Assembly (NCBI GenBank): GCA_946886545.1
Contig: CAMPIU010000013.1
Coordinates: forward strand, 1 to 17,297
Reading direction: 5' to 3'
From: an uncultured Flavobacteriales bacterium
GTDB taxonomy: Bacteria > Bacteroidota > Bacteroidia > Flavobacteriales > Crocinitomicaceae
DNA: 17,297 nt
The notes below the pieces were generated by a model. That model ran no database searches. It was not told the DNA's origin and saw only the letters and a program-made list of their open reading frames with translations. Made by a program: the position numbers and the translations under genes. Numbering within the stretch: position 1 is the stretch's first letter; every line of letters begins with the position of its first letter. This document shows, one piece after another, positions 455-3,523 of this stretch.

Positions 455-1093
455 TTACCTGTGTTGTTTTTTTCGCAGGTTGATAAATACTTCCGACCCC
501 ATTCTGGCAGGTACGCTGTTGTAGCATTCTACCATCGTTATGATTTCGAAATTCGGATCGAAAATGGGTTTGTATTCCAGTGAATTACCTCCGAATGGCG
601 GACCTTGGTGCGTAAATTCTCGGTTAAACAAAACGCCGATCACTCTTCCATGAGGGCGTAACAAGGAGTCCATTTTATTTGAATAGTGTGTGCGCTCTTT
701 TGGATCAATAGCACAAAAGAATGTCTGTTCGATGATCAGATCGTAGGTTTCCTGATGTTGAAAAAAGTCTTCACATAGAATCCTGATTCCTTCCTGATTC
801 TCAAATTTCACTTGCAAGAGTTCCACTGCTTTTGGAGCAATATCAATTAAGGTAATATTCGTGAATCCGTTCAAAATCAGGTATTCCGCTTCGTAAGCAT
901 TTCCGCAACCGGGAATCAAAATGGCTGCTTCTTTGTTTTGGTATTGGGATAAATAGTTGGTGATTGAAGGAGAAGCAAAACCGATATCCCAACCGGTTTT
1001 GCTCATTTCCCACCGAGTATTCCAATAAGAAGCATCAAGTTGTTGCTCATTGGTTTTTGTCAGGTGTTGTAGTTTTTTTTCTCCTTTCTCCAT
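455..1093 (-). CDS. TPMT-family SAM-dependent methyltransferase (thiol/halide methyltransferase-like)
   Basis: A 212-residue class I methyltransferase. The SAM-binding motif I is ILIPGCGNAYEAEYL (58-72), followed by the acidic strand end TLIDI (81-85) and CEDFF (107-111). The N-terminal YWNTRW...TGWDIG (23-38) and the central YDLIIEQTFFCAIDP (117-131) are typical of the TPMT family, which includes thiopurine methyltransferases and the plant halide/thiol methyltransferases that can methylate bisulfide. The substrate cannot be read from the sequence. A longer TTG start at 1132 would overlap the upstream gene; the ATG at 1093 fits the family length better and leaves a 31-nt gap to the stop codon of the persulfide dioxygenase. 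With no promoter visible in that gap, the two genes are probably one transcript. This context makes a small thiol or sulfide a reasonable but unproven substrate. Confidence 0.85.
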   Translation of the reverse strand: MEKGEKKLQHLTKTNEQQLDASYWNTRWEMSKTGWDIGFASPSITNYLSQYQNKEAAILIPGCGNAYEAEYLILNGFTNITLIDIAPKAVELLQVKFENQEGIRILCEDFFQHQETYDLIIEQTFFCAIDPKERTHYSNKMDSLLRPHGRVIGVLFNREFTHQGPPFGGNSLEYKPIFDPNFEIITMVECYNSVPARMGSEVFINLRKKQHR

Positions 1094-1124: not shown

Positions 1125-2537
1125 TTAACCAATTACTTTGCTCTGACACACAAATTTACTTTTAGGTACATTGGTTGTCGAAATGGCATTGAATCCACCG
1201 GCAACTTCCGTAAAGTTTCGGTATCCCCGTGCCTGTAAAATGCTTGCAGCAATCATACTTCGGTAACCTCCTGCACAGTGCAGGTAAAAGTGTTCTTGTG
1301 GCTTAACATCCTTAATCCAATCATTGATGTATGCCAAAGGTTTACTATATGCTTCTTCGACGTGTTCAGCCGCATATTCACTTTCTTTCCGGACATCTAT
1401 TATTTTACTTTTACCGATTTTTACTTCCGAAGCAAATTGTTCGGCTGTGATGCGGTTTACCATGTCAATTTCTTTAGCAGCATTCACCCATGATTGAAAA
1501 CCACCACCTAAATGACCTAATACATGATCAAAGCCAACCCGGCTCAATCGGGTGATTGCTTCTGCTTCTCTCCCTTCGTCAGTAACTAATAGAATCGGTT
1601 GTTTGACATCGACAATCAGTGCGCCGACCCACGGGGCAAAATCTCCATCCAAACCGATATTAATGGATTGTGGAATGAATCCGATTGCAAATTCCTGATC
1701 ACTTCTCGTATCCAAAATCAATGCTCCGGTACTTTCTGCAACCGCTTCAAATTCACCGACAGATAAGGCATTCATTCCATGACTCAATACGTTTTCGAAT
1801 TGGTCGTATCCTTTCTTATTCATTGCTACGTTCATTCCAAAATAGGCAGGAGGAGGTAGTAGTCCTTCCGTTACCGCTTCAACAAAGGCTTTCTTGTTCG
1901 GTTGATTCAGGGCATAATTCATTTTCTTTTGGTTCCCTAAACTGTCAACCGTTTCCTTCATCATGTTTTTTCCACAGGCAGAGCCTGCTCCGTGTGCCGG
2001 ATAAACGGTGATATCATCTGGAAGGGGTAGAATTTTAGTGTAAATACTTTCGTATAACAATCCAGCTAATTCTTCCATCGTGAGGTGAGCTGCTTTTTGA
2101 GCTAAATCAGGTCTTCCTACATCCCCCAGGAAAAGGGTATCCCCACTAAATAATGCTGTTTCCTTGCCATGCTCATCGATTAACAAAAAGCAAGAACTTT
2201 CCATAGTGTGTCCCGGAGTGTGCAGTACTTTCAGTTTGATGTCGCCGATTTCGAAGATTTGATTGTCTGTTGCAACAATGGCATCGAATTCCGGTTGAGC
2301 TGTAGGACCATAAACAATGGGTGCATTGGTTTTCTTACTTAAATCAAGGTGACCGCTAACGAAATCTGCATGAAAATGGGTTTCAAAAATGTATTTGAGC
2401 TTCACGCCGTCGTATTCTAATCGATCGATATAGGGTTGTGTTTCTCTTAATGGGTCAATAATTGCCGCTTCTCCGTTTGACGTGATGTAGTATGCTCCTT
2501 GTGCCAGACATCCCGTATAAATTTGTTCGATTCTCAT
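1125..2537 (-). CDS. CstB-like persulfide dioxygenase with two rhodanese domains (MBL fold-rhodanese)
   Basis: A 470-residue cytoplasmic enzyme expected to oxidise low-molecular-weight persulfides. The metallo-beta-lactamase domain (about 1-230) carries ETHFHADFVSGH (52-63), TPGHT (107-111, H110) and SGDTLFLGD (131-139, D133), with a further PAH (180-182). By analogy with ETHE1/CstB, the first His of the THFH motif, H110 and D133 are likely mononuclear iron ligands. A first rhodanese-like domain (about 255-358) has VTDEGRE (318-324) where the active-site loop should be and has no cysteine, so it is probably structural. The second domain (about 364-455) keeps the catalytic loop HCAGGYRS with C421. 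A further cysteine, C464, lies in the C-terminal tail. This order of active MBL, pseudo-rhodanese and active rhodanese is that of Staphylococcus CstB. A GTG start at 2576 would lie inside the -7 box, so I chose the ATG at 2537. Confidence 0.92.
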   Translation of the reverse strand: MRIEQIYTGCLAQGAYYITSNGEAAIIDPLRETQPYIDRLEYDGVKLKYIFETHFHADFVSGHLDLSKKTNAPIVYGPTAQPEFDAIVATDNQIFEIGDIKLKVLHTPGHTMESSCFLLIDEHGKETALFSGDTLFLGDVGRPDLAQKAAHLTMEELAGLLYESIYTKILPLPDDITVYPAHGAGSACGKNMMKETVDSLGNQKKMNYALNQPNKKAFVEAVTEGLLPPPAYFGMNVAMNKKGYDQFENVLSHGMNALSVGEFEAVAESTGALILDTRSDQEFAIGFIPQSINIGLDGDFAPWVGALIVDVKQPILLVTDEGREAEAITRLSRVGFDHVLGHLGGGFQSWVNAAKEIDMVNRITAEQFASEVKIGKSKIIDVRKESEYAAEHVEEAYSKPLAYINDWIKDVKPQEHFYLHCAGGYRSMIAASILQARGYRNFTEVAGGFNAISTTNVPKSKFVCQSKVIG

Positions 2538-2575: not shown

Positions 2576-2620
2576 CAAAGGTGCATCGATTGTTTTTGAT
2601 ATTCAGCTACTTTGGTTACA
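2576..2620 (-). promoter_or_regulatory. Promoter with Crp/Fnr-like operator for the persulfide dioxygenase gene
   Basis: On the minus strand, TGTAACCAAAGTAGCTG (2620 to 2604) is followed by an 18-bp spacer and then TGCACCTTTG (2585 to 2576), whose last eight bases differ from TAnnTTTG only at the first. The ATG is at 2537. The operator contains a TGTAAC half-site and a degenerate second half with four bases between, the spacing used by Crp/Fnr proteins. Assuming transcription starts about 5 nt after the -7 box, the operator centre lies near -41, a classical activator position. The same layout is found before the TauE gene. Confidence 0.6.
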
Positions 2621-2659
2621 CAAACAGATTTTCCTGCTAAATACATTGACATGCCCTCA

Positions 2660-3457
2660 TCAGTTGGTCGGAATGAGTTCTTTCAGAATAATATACACTC
2701 CCATTGCCAGCACAAACCACCCGAACGCTGGCTTTAATCGTGCTCCGTTTATCTTTTTCGAAAGAGCCATCCCGACGAAAATTCCGCTGATTGCGAATAC
2801 CGTAATGATACTCAAAAATTTCCAATCGATTTCAGTGTCATGAAGTGAGAACAAAAATCCGGTTAAGGAGTTGATCGCAATGATTACCAATGAAGTTCCA
2901 ACGGCTGTTTTCATAGGTAGTTTCAGGAAGTTAACCAAGGCCGGAATGATCAGAAATCCACCTCCTGCGCCAACAATGCCTGTTACAAATCCTACAAAAA
3001 TTCCTTGGAACATCAAAAACAAGTAGCTGGGTTTGTTTTGCCCTGATTCATTGTCCTGAACTTTCCGTTTTTTGATCATGCTATAGGCAGCTGCAATCAT
3101 TAAAAAAGCAAACAACAACATGAAAAATACATTTTTAGTCACCGCAAAACTTCCGATTTGAAAAAGATGCTCCGGAATAGCAGGAACTATAAACCATCTG
3201 GTAAGAAATACAATAGCGATGGAAGGAAGTCCAAAGGCGATCACTGTATTGCGATTTACCTGACCCCTTTTGAAGTAAAAAACGGAACCTACCAAACTCG
3301 TTACTCCGACAACAAAGAGGGAATATGTCGTAGACAGAACTGTATCCAGGCTAAATAAGTAAACCAAAACAGGAACCGTAAGAATACTTCCTCCTCCACC
3401 GATAAGCCCTAGTAAAATACCGATAAAGATAGAAGCGAAATAACCTGCAATTTCCAT
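2660..3457 (-). CDS. TauE/SafE family anion exporter (putative sulfite/sulfonate permease)
   Basis: A 265-residue inner-membrane protein made almost entirely of hydrophobic segments, consistent with about eight helices. The two pseudo-repeat signatures of the TauE/SafE family are present: GLIGGGGSILTVPVLVYLF (17-35) near the N-terminus and GIVGAGGGFLIIPALV in the second half, after a charged cytoplasmic loop (KKRKVQDNESGQNKP). Family members export sulfite, sulfoacetate or related anions. Here the neighbouring persulfide dioxygenase releases sulfite, so removing sulfite or thiosulfate is the likely role; the substrate is inferred from context. A TTG start at 3481 would lie inside the -7 box, so the ATG at 3457 was chosen. 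It is separated by 122 nt from the dioxygenase gene, which has its own copy of the same promoter and operator. Confidence 0.88.
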   Translation of the reverse strand: MEIAGYFASIFIGILLGLIGGGGSILTVPVLVYLFSLDTVLSTTYSLFVVGVTSLVGSVFYFKRGQVNRNTVIAFGLPSIAIVFLTRWFIVPAIPEHLFQIGSFAVTKNVFFMLLFAFLMIAAAYSMIKKRKVQDNESGQNKPSYLFLMFQGIFVGFVTGIVGAGGGFLIIPALVNFLKLPMKTAVGTSLVIIAINSLTGFLFSLHDTEIDWKFLSIITVFAISGIFVGMALSKKINGARLKPAFGWFVLAMGVYIILKELIPTN

Positions 3458-3478
3458 GTGCTGATAAAATTGATGCTG

Positions 3479-3523
3479 CAAAAGTGCAGTTATTCAACAA
3501 CTAATCCAGCAACTTTGGTTACA
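3479..3523 (-). promoter_or_regulatory. Promoter with Crp/Fnr-like operator for the TauE gene
   Basis: On the minus strand, TGTAACCAAAGTTGCTG (3523 to 3507), then 18 bp, then TGCACTTTTG (3488 to 3479). It differs from the copy before the dioxygenase gene at one base in the 17-bp operator and one in the 10-bp box, with identical spacing. The intervening 18 bp are not conserved, which argues for selection on the two elements rather than a recent duplication. The ATG lies about 22 nt downstream of the box. The operator abuts the 3' end of the Crp/Fnr relic. Confidence 0.62.

Follow-up and report, generated by a model that had tools for sequence, protein, structure and literature searches.

The two promoter sites considered here, located before a persulfide dioxygenase (PDO) gene and a TauE-family exporter gene in a 17,297-nucleotide stretch of DNA (the window), probably serve as operators. 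The protein that binds them would be an activator of the Crp/Fnr family that turns on the detoxification of sulfane sulfur in Bacteroidota. The components of this picture, namely a conserved element, its target genes, its linkage to and co-occurrence with a candidate regulator, and an invariant cysteine in that regulator, emerge from sequence comparison.

There are two copies of TGTAACCAAAGTNGCTG-N18-TGCACNTTTG in the window, both on the minus strand and upstream of the PDO and TauE genes, and neither the operators (2604-2620 and 3507-3523) nor the combined 45-mers (2576-2620 and 3479-3523) carry a mismatch, which bears out the initial annotation in its central observation of the same operator, exact 18-bp gap and -7 box occurring twice. 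Before PDO, the operator TGTAACCAAAGTAGCTG (2604-2620) is followed by an 18-bp spacer (2586-2603) and the -7 box CACCTTTG (2576-2583), with a predicted start at about 2571. Before TauE, the operator TGTAACCAAAGTTGCTG (3507-3523), spacer (3489-3506) and -7 box CACTTTTG (3479-3486) lead to a predicted start at about 3474. The -7 boxes, which had been described as matching, are indeed both present at 18 bp and fit the consensus TAnnTTTG, except that the first base departs from it in both. No further perfect match to the general form, TGTRAC-N4-GTNRC followed after 22 bases by NANNTTTG, was found in the window.

Two near-identical cores within one window could reflect a recent duplication or chance resemblance, and we consider this extremely improbable. 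The spacers, AATATCAAAAACAATCGA and GATTAGTTGTTGAATAAC, are fixed in length and agree at 5 of 18 positions, which is about the level of chance, and thus the two promoters are not a plain duplication, as had been claimed from their unconserved spacers. With as many as three mismatches tolerated, 200 dinucleotide shuffles of the window still yielded no copy of the combined motif. Moreover, both copies are retained in a syntenic genome, G157 (locus L275; PDO 95%, TauE 82%, methyltransferase 84% and flanking genes 79-97%), where the PDO operator is the same and the operators and -7 boxes are kept save for one base each before TauE (16 of the 17 operator bases are retained), while 9 of the 18 bases of the TauE spacer have changed and 9 are shared. 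The recurrence of the element across related genomes, described below, also argues against duplication or chance.

The gene behind the first promoter (1125-2537, minus strand) encodes a 470-residue protein in which Pfam detects a metallo-beta-lactamase (MBL) domain and then two rhodanese stretches, the arrangement of a CstB-like PDO-rhodanese fusion. Its relatives in the PDB, 3tp9 and 3r2u, the latter of which we take to be staphylococcal CstB, span residues 3-452 of 470, and the NCBIfam Blh model is not reached (55.7 against 625 bits). The second gene (2660-3457, minus strand) encodes a 265-residue protein that belongs to the TauE/SafE family by its Pfam TauE score (156.5 bits, cut-off 32.6); no NCBIfam model matched it. 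A thiol/halide methyltransferase-like gene (455-1093, minus strand; Pfam TPMT, 92 bits) lies 31 bp past PDO and is probably in the same operon.

The window motif is a local version of TGTRAC-N4-GTNRC, a conserved element standing at one set distance from a sigma-A -7 box. A search with the PDO protein provided 81 loci, consisting of the best 80 of 591 confirmed relatives' loci together with the window, and in these a loose form of the element had PDO as the next gene at 48 sites and TauE at 29. When operator-to-box spacings from 12 to 32 were scanned in the same 81 loci, 86 sites fell at 22 and between 0 and 3 at each of the 20 others. Many PDO promoters among the best 80 of 591 loci are without the element, including those of L005, L006, L026, L030 and L035. 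The TAnnTTTG box was placed at -12 to -5 in PMC9723704, and this placement puts the dyad centre at -41.5, which would correspond to the class II position of Crp/Fnr activators; the earlier estimate of a centre near -41 agrees with this value predicted from the box. An alignment of 115 non-redundant promoters, out of 153, revealed additional conservation of T at -51 (72%), GT at -33/-32 (54% and 57%), T or C at -4 (82%) and A at +1 (70%), while T at -12 was present in merely 53%.

Genome-wide occurrence was examined in 79 related genomes that were reached through PDO loci, each chosen for its PDO relative, with the genome of L020 left out. They yielded 150 matches to the element against 10 for a reversed-pattern control, an excess of about 15-fold. 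The first 37 genomes contributed 95 matches, with all 37 represented (control, 4), and a further 42 genomes contributed 55 matches in 28 genomes (control, 6). The spaced element is scarce, with one to six copies per genome where it is present. Among 151 distinct sites in loci gathered from these PDO-selected genomes, the window excluded, 113 lie upstream of PDO/rhodanese, TauE, YeeE, YgaP-like, SQR-cluster or thiol methyltransferase genes, a target set that is biased because the genomes were found through PDO and in which target names derive from scanning one member per cluster. The largest group is a single-linkage cluster merging MBL and rhodanese proteins (67 sites), followed by TauE (34, with a further 2 for half-length TauE), TolC of RND operons (10), YeeE (5), DUF983-like proteins (5; the scanned member falls slightly below the Pfam cut-off), Tll0287-like (3), Prx6-like (2), YgaP-like (2), the SQR cluster (2; the scanned member scores 649.9 bits against an NCBIfam cut-off of 525) and the methyltransferase (1). 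Other small clusters account for 15 sites, and 3 have no gene within 350 bases.

A less biased sample was drawn from 200 genomes of the family of G047, which is probably also that of the window, five of which (G047 and four others) are also among the 79. The element is present in 125 of these genomes, compared with 13 that carry a match to the reversed control. Thirty loci were taken, one per genome, with near-copies included and with one locus (L238) from an overlapping genome. PDO, rhodanese, TauE or SulP occurs within the first three genes at 19 of the 30; two loci have a YgaP-like gene alone, one a DUF983-like gene alone and one an unknown gene. Four carry a DUF6132-OsmC operon, followed in L246 by what reads as a rhodanese-thioredoxin-like protein, and at three a SoxB-like protein lies about 600 bases off, another member of whose cluster scores 249 bits with the SoxB model against a cut-off of 550. 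Random occurrence across related genomes with no link to sulfur genes had been put forward as the outcome that would speak against the proposal, and both samples revealed the opposite. The small sulfur regulon of the initial annotation is correct in that most targets are sulfur genes; it proves wider than two genes and includes RND efflux, DUF983-like and other targets.

Several record titles in these collections appear to be wrong (L021, L029, L038, L052 and L053, assigned to Chryseobacterium gleum, Sphingomonadales, Rhizobium and Bifidobacterium breve), with these MAGs carrying a Bacteroidota-type PDO. The PolA proteins of L021 and L029 are as close to that of the window as is the PolA of a Crocinitomicaceae MAG, and the genome of L038 is in the 200-genome family set.

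The likely regulator of the operators is a Crp/Fnr subfamily that is often encoded directly upstream of them, as judged from gene neighbourhoods and joint occurrence. A Crp/Fnr protein cluster is the fourth-commonest neighbour after PDO, being found in 37 of the 81 loci (the best 80 of 591 and the window), and the order crp-[operator]tauE-[operator]pdo is frequent. A profile built from 16 regulator sequences (A1), applied at a threshold of E 1e-20, gave 90 matches in 68 of the 79 genomes, a few of them pieces (G027 and G043). Of the 90 matches, 29 have a same-strand operator no more than 100 bp downstream, and for 52 one lies no more than 12 kb away; on the opposite strand the count is zero up to 2 kb and three up to 12 kb. 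The regulator gene ends within the operator that follows it in 14 of 46 linked cases, its stop codon being a TAA or TGA of that operator (for example L002:7053-7057). Operator and regulator occur together in 63 of the 79 genomes, the operator alone in 2, the regulator alone in 5 and neither in 9 (p=4.7e-7, ignoring kinship); at E < 1e-60 the corresponding numbers are 60, 5, 3 and 11 (p=1.4e-7, likewise ignoring kinship). For the 200 family genomes they are 111, 14, 40 and 35 (p=4.6e-8, again ignoring kinship). In a Saprospiraceae MAG (L047:4162-4784) a stop interrupts the regulator frame, possibly by assembly error or decay.

In the two members of the subfamily that were scanned, both the cNMP_binding and the HTH_Crp_2 models exceeded their curated cut-offs, as expected of the Crp/Fnr superfamily, and the candidate's fold matches CRP and Vfr. 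Pfam showed these Crp-type domains and no ArsR or CsoR model in the two members, one of which also gave weak MarR/Rrf2-like winged-helix matches. The candidate does not fit a cAMP-dependent CRP: the protein of L002 scores 54.6 bits with the NCBIfam CRP model against a cut-off of 266. In CRP, cAMP is contacted by Glu72 and Arg82, and the alignment provides no equivalents of these pocket residues in the candidate. Nor does it fit a 4Fe-4S FNR protein, as many members have one cysteine only, at position 76, and the FNR subfamily score is 21.7 against 228 bits. A cysteine beside the cNMP-pocket helix, presumably near the place of CooA's haem ligand, is present in all 91 fetched subfamily sequences that cover the position, and absent from the 22 other Crp/Fnr proteins compared, which came from three genomes. 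That control comprised 23 non-family rows, two of which are the same gene in overlapping loci, with the column gapped in nine rows and, in L222, a cysteine one place further on.

A second line of evidence connects the recognition helix of this subfamily with the operator. According to PMC11253593, Glu181 of E. coli CRP makes contact with the cytosine at base pair four of TGTGA. Among 69 linked sites, the 14 accompanied by Glu-type regulators, as defined at the CRP-181 position, all have G at the fourth half-site place in at least one half, whereas of the 49 linked to Val-type regulators 4 have a G half and 45 have none. The remainder divide into two Ala sites with G, three Thr sites (two with and one without) and one regulator fragment (without). 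In a smaller earlier sample a G half was found at 0 of 35 Val-type and 12 of 12 Glu-type sites, and 20 more loci brought these counts to 4 of 49 and 14 of 14. On a tree there were five changes of Glu, and in four supported independent pairs the operator followed suit in 3.7 on average, with no change in the opposite direction; the four to five independent pairs available fall short of significance (median p 0.125).

The window operators lack a G half, which predicts a Val-type regulator, and one would therefore be expected in the window's own genome. No regulator gene lies within the 17,297-nucleotide window. Its closest relatives in PolA, at 71-72% identity, are G047, G044 and G017 (a Crocinitomicaceae MAG, locus L027), with 29 other genomes compared at 67% or less. 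The syntenic genome G157, which emerged from the family search, carries four element sites, two of them before rhodanese clusters and one each before TauE and PDO. Its single regulator match is of Val type, has the cysteine and lies beside one rhodanese cluster, away from tauE-pdo; the lack of a regulator in the window is thus no objection. Two of the four G157 sites (C24 and the one by the regulator) have a G half, which the simple code would not predict.

We propose that a regulator dimer would bind TGTAAC-N4-GTNRC centred at -41.5, adjoining the place expected of a -33 box, and make class II contact with RNA polymerase, thereby aiding sigma-A at promoters in which the first base of the -7 box often departs from the consensus. 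PDO would then oxidise persulfide and TauE would export sulfite or a related anion. At other loci of the regulon, persulfide and sulfide would be handled by YeeE, rhodanese and SQR. The regulator appears to have lost the residues with which CRP holds cAMP and to carry instead, where the pocket helix begins, the invariant cysteine, whose modification by persulfide or polysulfide may turn the regulator on. The Crp/Fnr-type activator envisaged by the initial annotation draws support for its family assignment from adjacency, co-occurrence and the recognition-helix code, and its activating sign is probable.

Crp/Fnr proteins have TGTNA-type half-sites in common, and another member, responsive to nitrosative stress or oxygen, might bind the sites such that the sulfur genes follow redox state indirectly. 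HcpR, a nitrosative-stress sensor controlling hcp, would be an example, and in a Porphyromonas genome (G014) one match precedes what reads as a hybrid-cluster-like protein and another a cupin-like one. Three genomes have 33, 28 and 10 cNMP-domain matches, and 14 of the 125 operator-bearing family genomes are without the candidate at E 1e-20. We nevertheless consider this unlikely and rank a pure redox reading low, because it is the cysteine subfamily that adjoins the operator, co-occurs with it (the test having been run for that subfamily alone) and has a helix residue that tracks the half-site.

A similarly low probability is attached to repression, whereby the regulator would block polymerase from -41.5 and be released by sulfur species in the manner of CstR or BigR. 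The site would crowd the -33 element, and BigR and two Hyphomicrobium sulfane-sulfur regulators are described as repressors. Against this, one exact spacing would not be needed for a repressor, and the low frequency of T at -12 is expected of activator-dependent promoters. Activation rather than repression is what we infer, and the Crp/Fnr-type sulfur regulon is widespread in Bacteroidota and probably of an activating kind.

In the cst operon of Staphylococcus aureus a TauE exporter, a PDO-rhodanese fusion and SQR form one sulfide regulon under CstR, a CsoR-family repressor. The present system is alike in placing TauE, PDO-rhodanese and SQR in one predicted sulfide regulon and differs in its Crp/Fnr-fold candidate and the inferred class II position of its operator. 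SqrR, BigR and YgaV are ArsR-type repressors. They and the Hyphomicrobium proteins sHdrR and SoxR are similar in that sulfide or sulfane sulfur controls sulfur-oxidation genes; sHdrR and SoxR are described as ArsR-type repressors, and fold and sign differ. From E. coli CRP the candidate is set apart by the missing equivalents of its cAMP contacts, by the pocket cysteine and by the low CRP model score. The Crp of Acinetobacter baumannii is persulfidated in sulfide-treated cells and is likewise a Crp-family protein with a cysteine modified by sulfur species; however, according to PMC7315123, it is 50% identical to E. coli CRP, its cysteine lies opposite the ligand pocket, and the modification is tied to biofilm rather than to sulfur genes. 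The best PDB match, 3dv8 (EUBREC_1222 of Eubacterium rectale, from structural genomics; 1.6e-34), has a cysteine in the same column and differs in coming from a Firmicute. Its pocket cysteine raises the possibility that the subfamily extends beyond Bacteroidota.

There is about an even chance that a Crp/Fnr pocket has been turned into a thiol sensor, such that sulfane sulfur on the invariant cysteine allosterically activates the dimer and controls a phylum-wide sulfide and persulfide regulon by activation, distinct from CstR, SqrR/BigR or FisR. If so, this would constitute a new mode of sensing by the Crp fold, with pocket-cysteine chemistry replacing ligand binding. Bacteroidota carry many PDO genes, and the phylum's pdo transcripts rise on addition of sulfide to sediment (PMC12345210). 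The literature searched, in listings and passages, contained no description of sulfide or persulfide sensing in Bacteroidota, nor of such a sulfur regulator and operator system. The present results name a regulator and its operator, the geometry of the promoter and a residue that may do the sensing, all of which can be tested in a genetically tractable Flavobacterium.

Two further observations concern genes accompanying the element. The closest PDB structures to the TPMT-annotated protein at 455-1093 are halide/thiol methyltransferases (best 3.2e-21), and its cluster is present in 18 of the 81 loci (the best 80 of 591 PDO relatives and the window) at a median of 1612 bp from the PDO start, which suggests methylation of sulfide or thiols as a second detoxification route. 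The element also precedes TolC-MFP-RND efflux operons in L118, L121, L126, L128, L137, L164, L167, L171 and others, and the cysteine-bearing regulator adjoins several RND efflux operons (L137, L164, L167 and L174).
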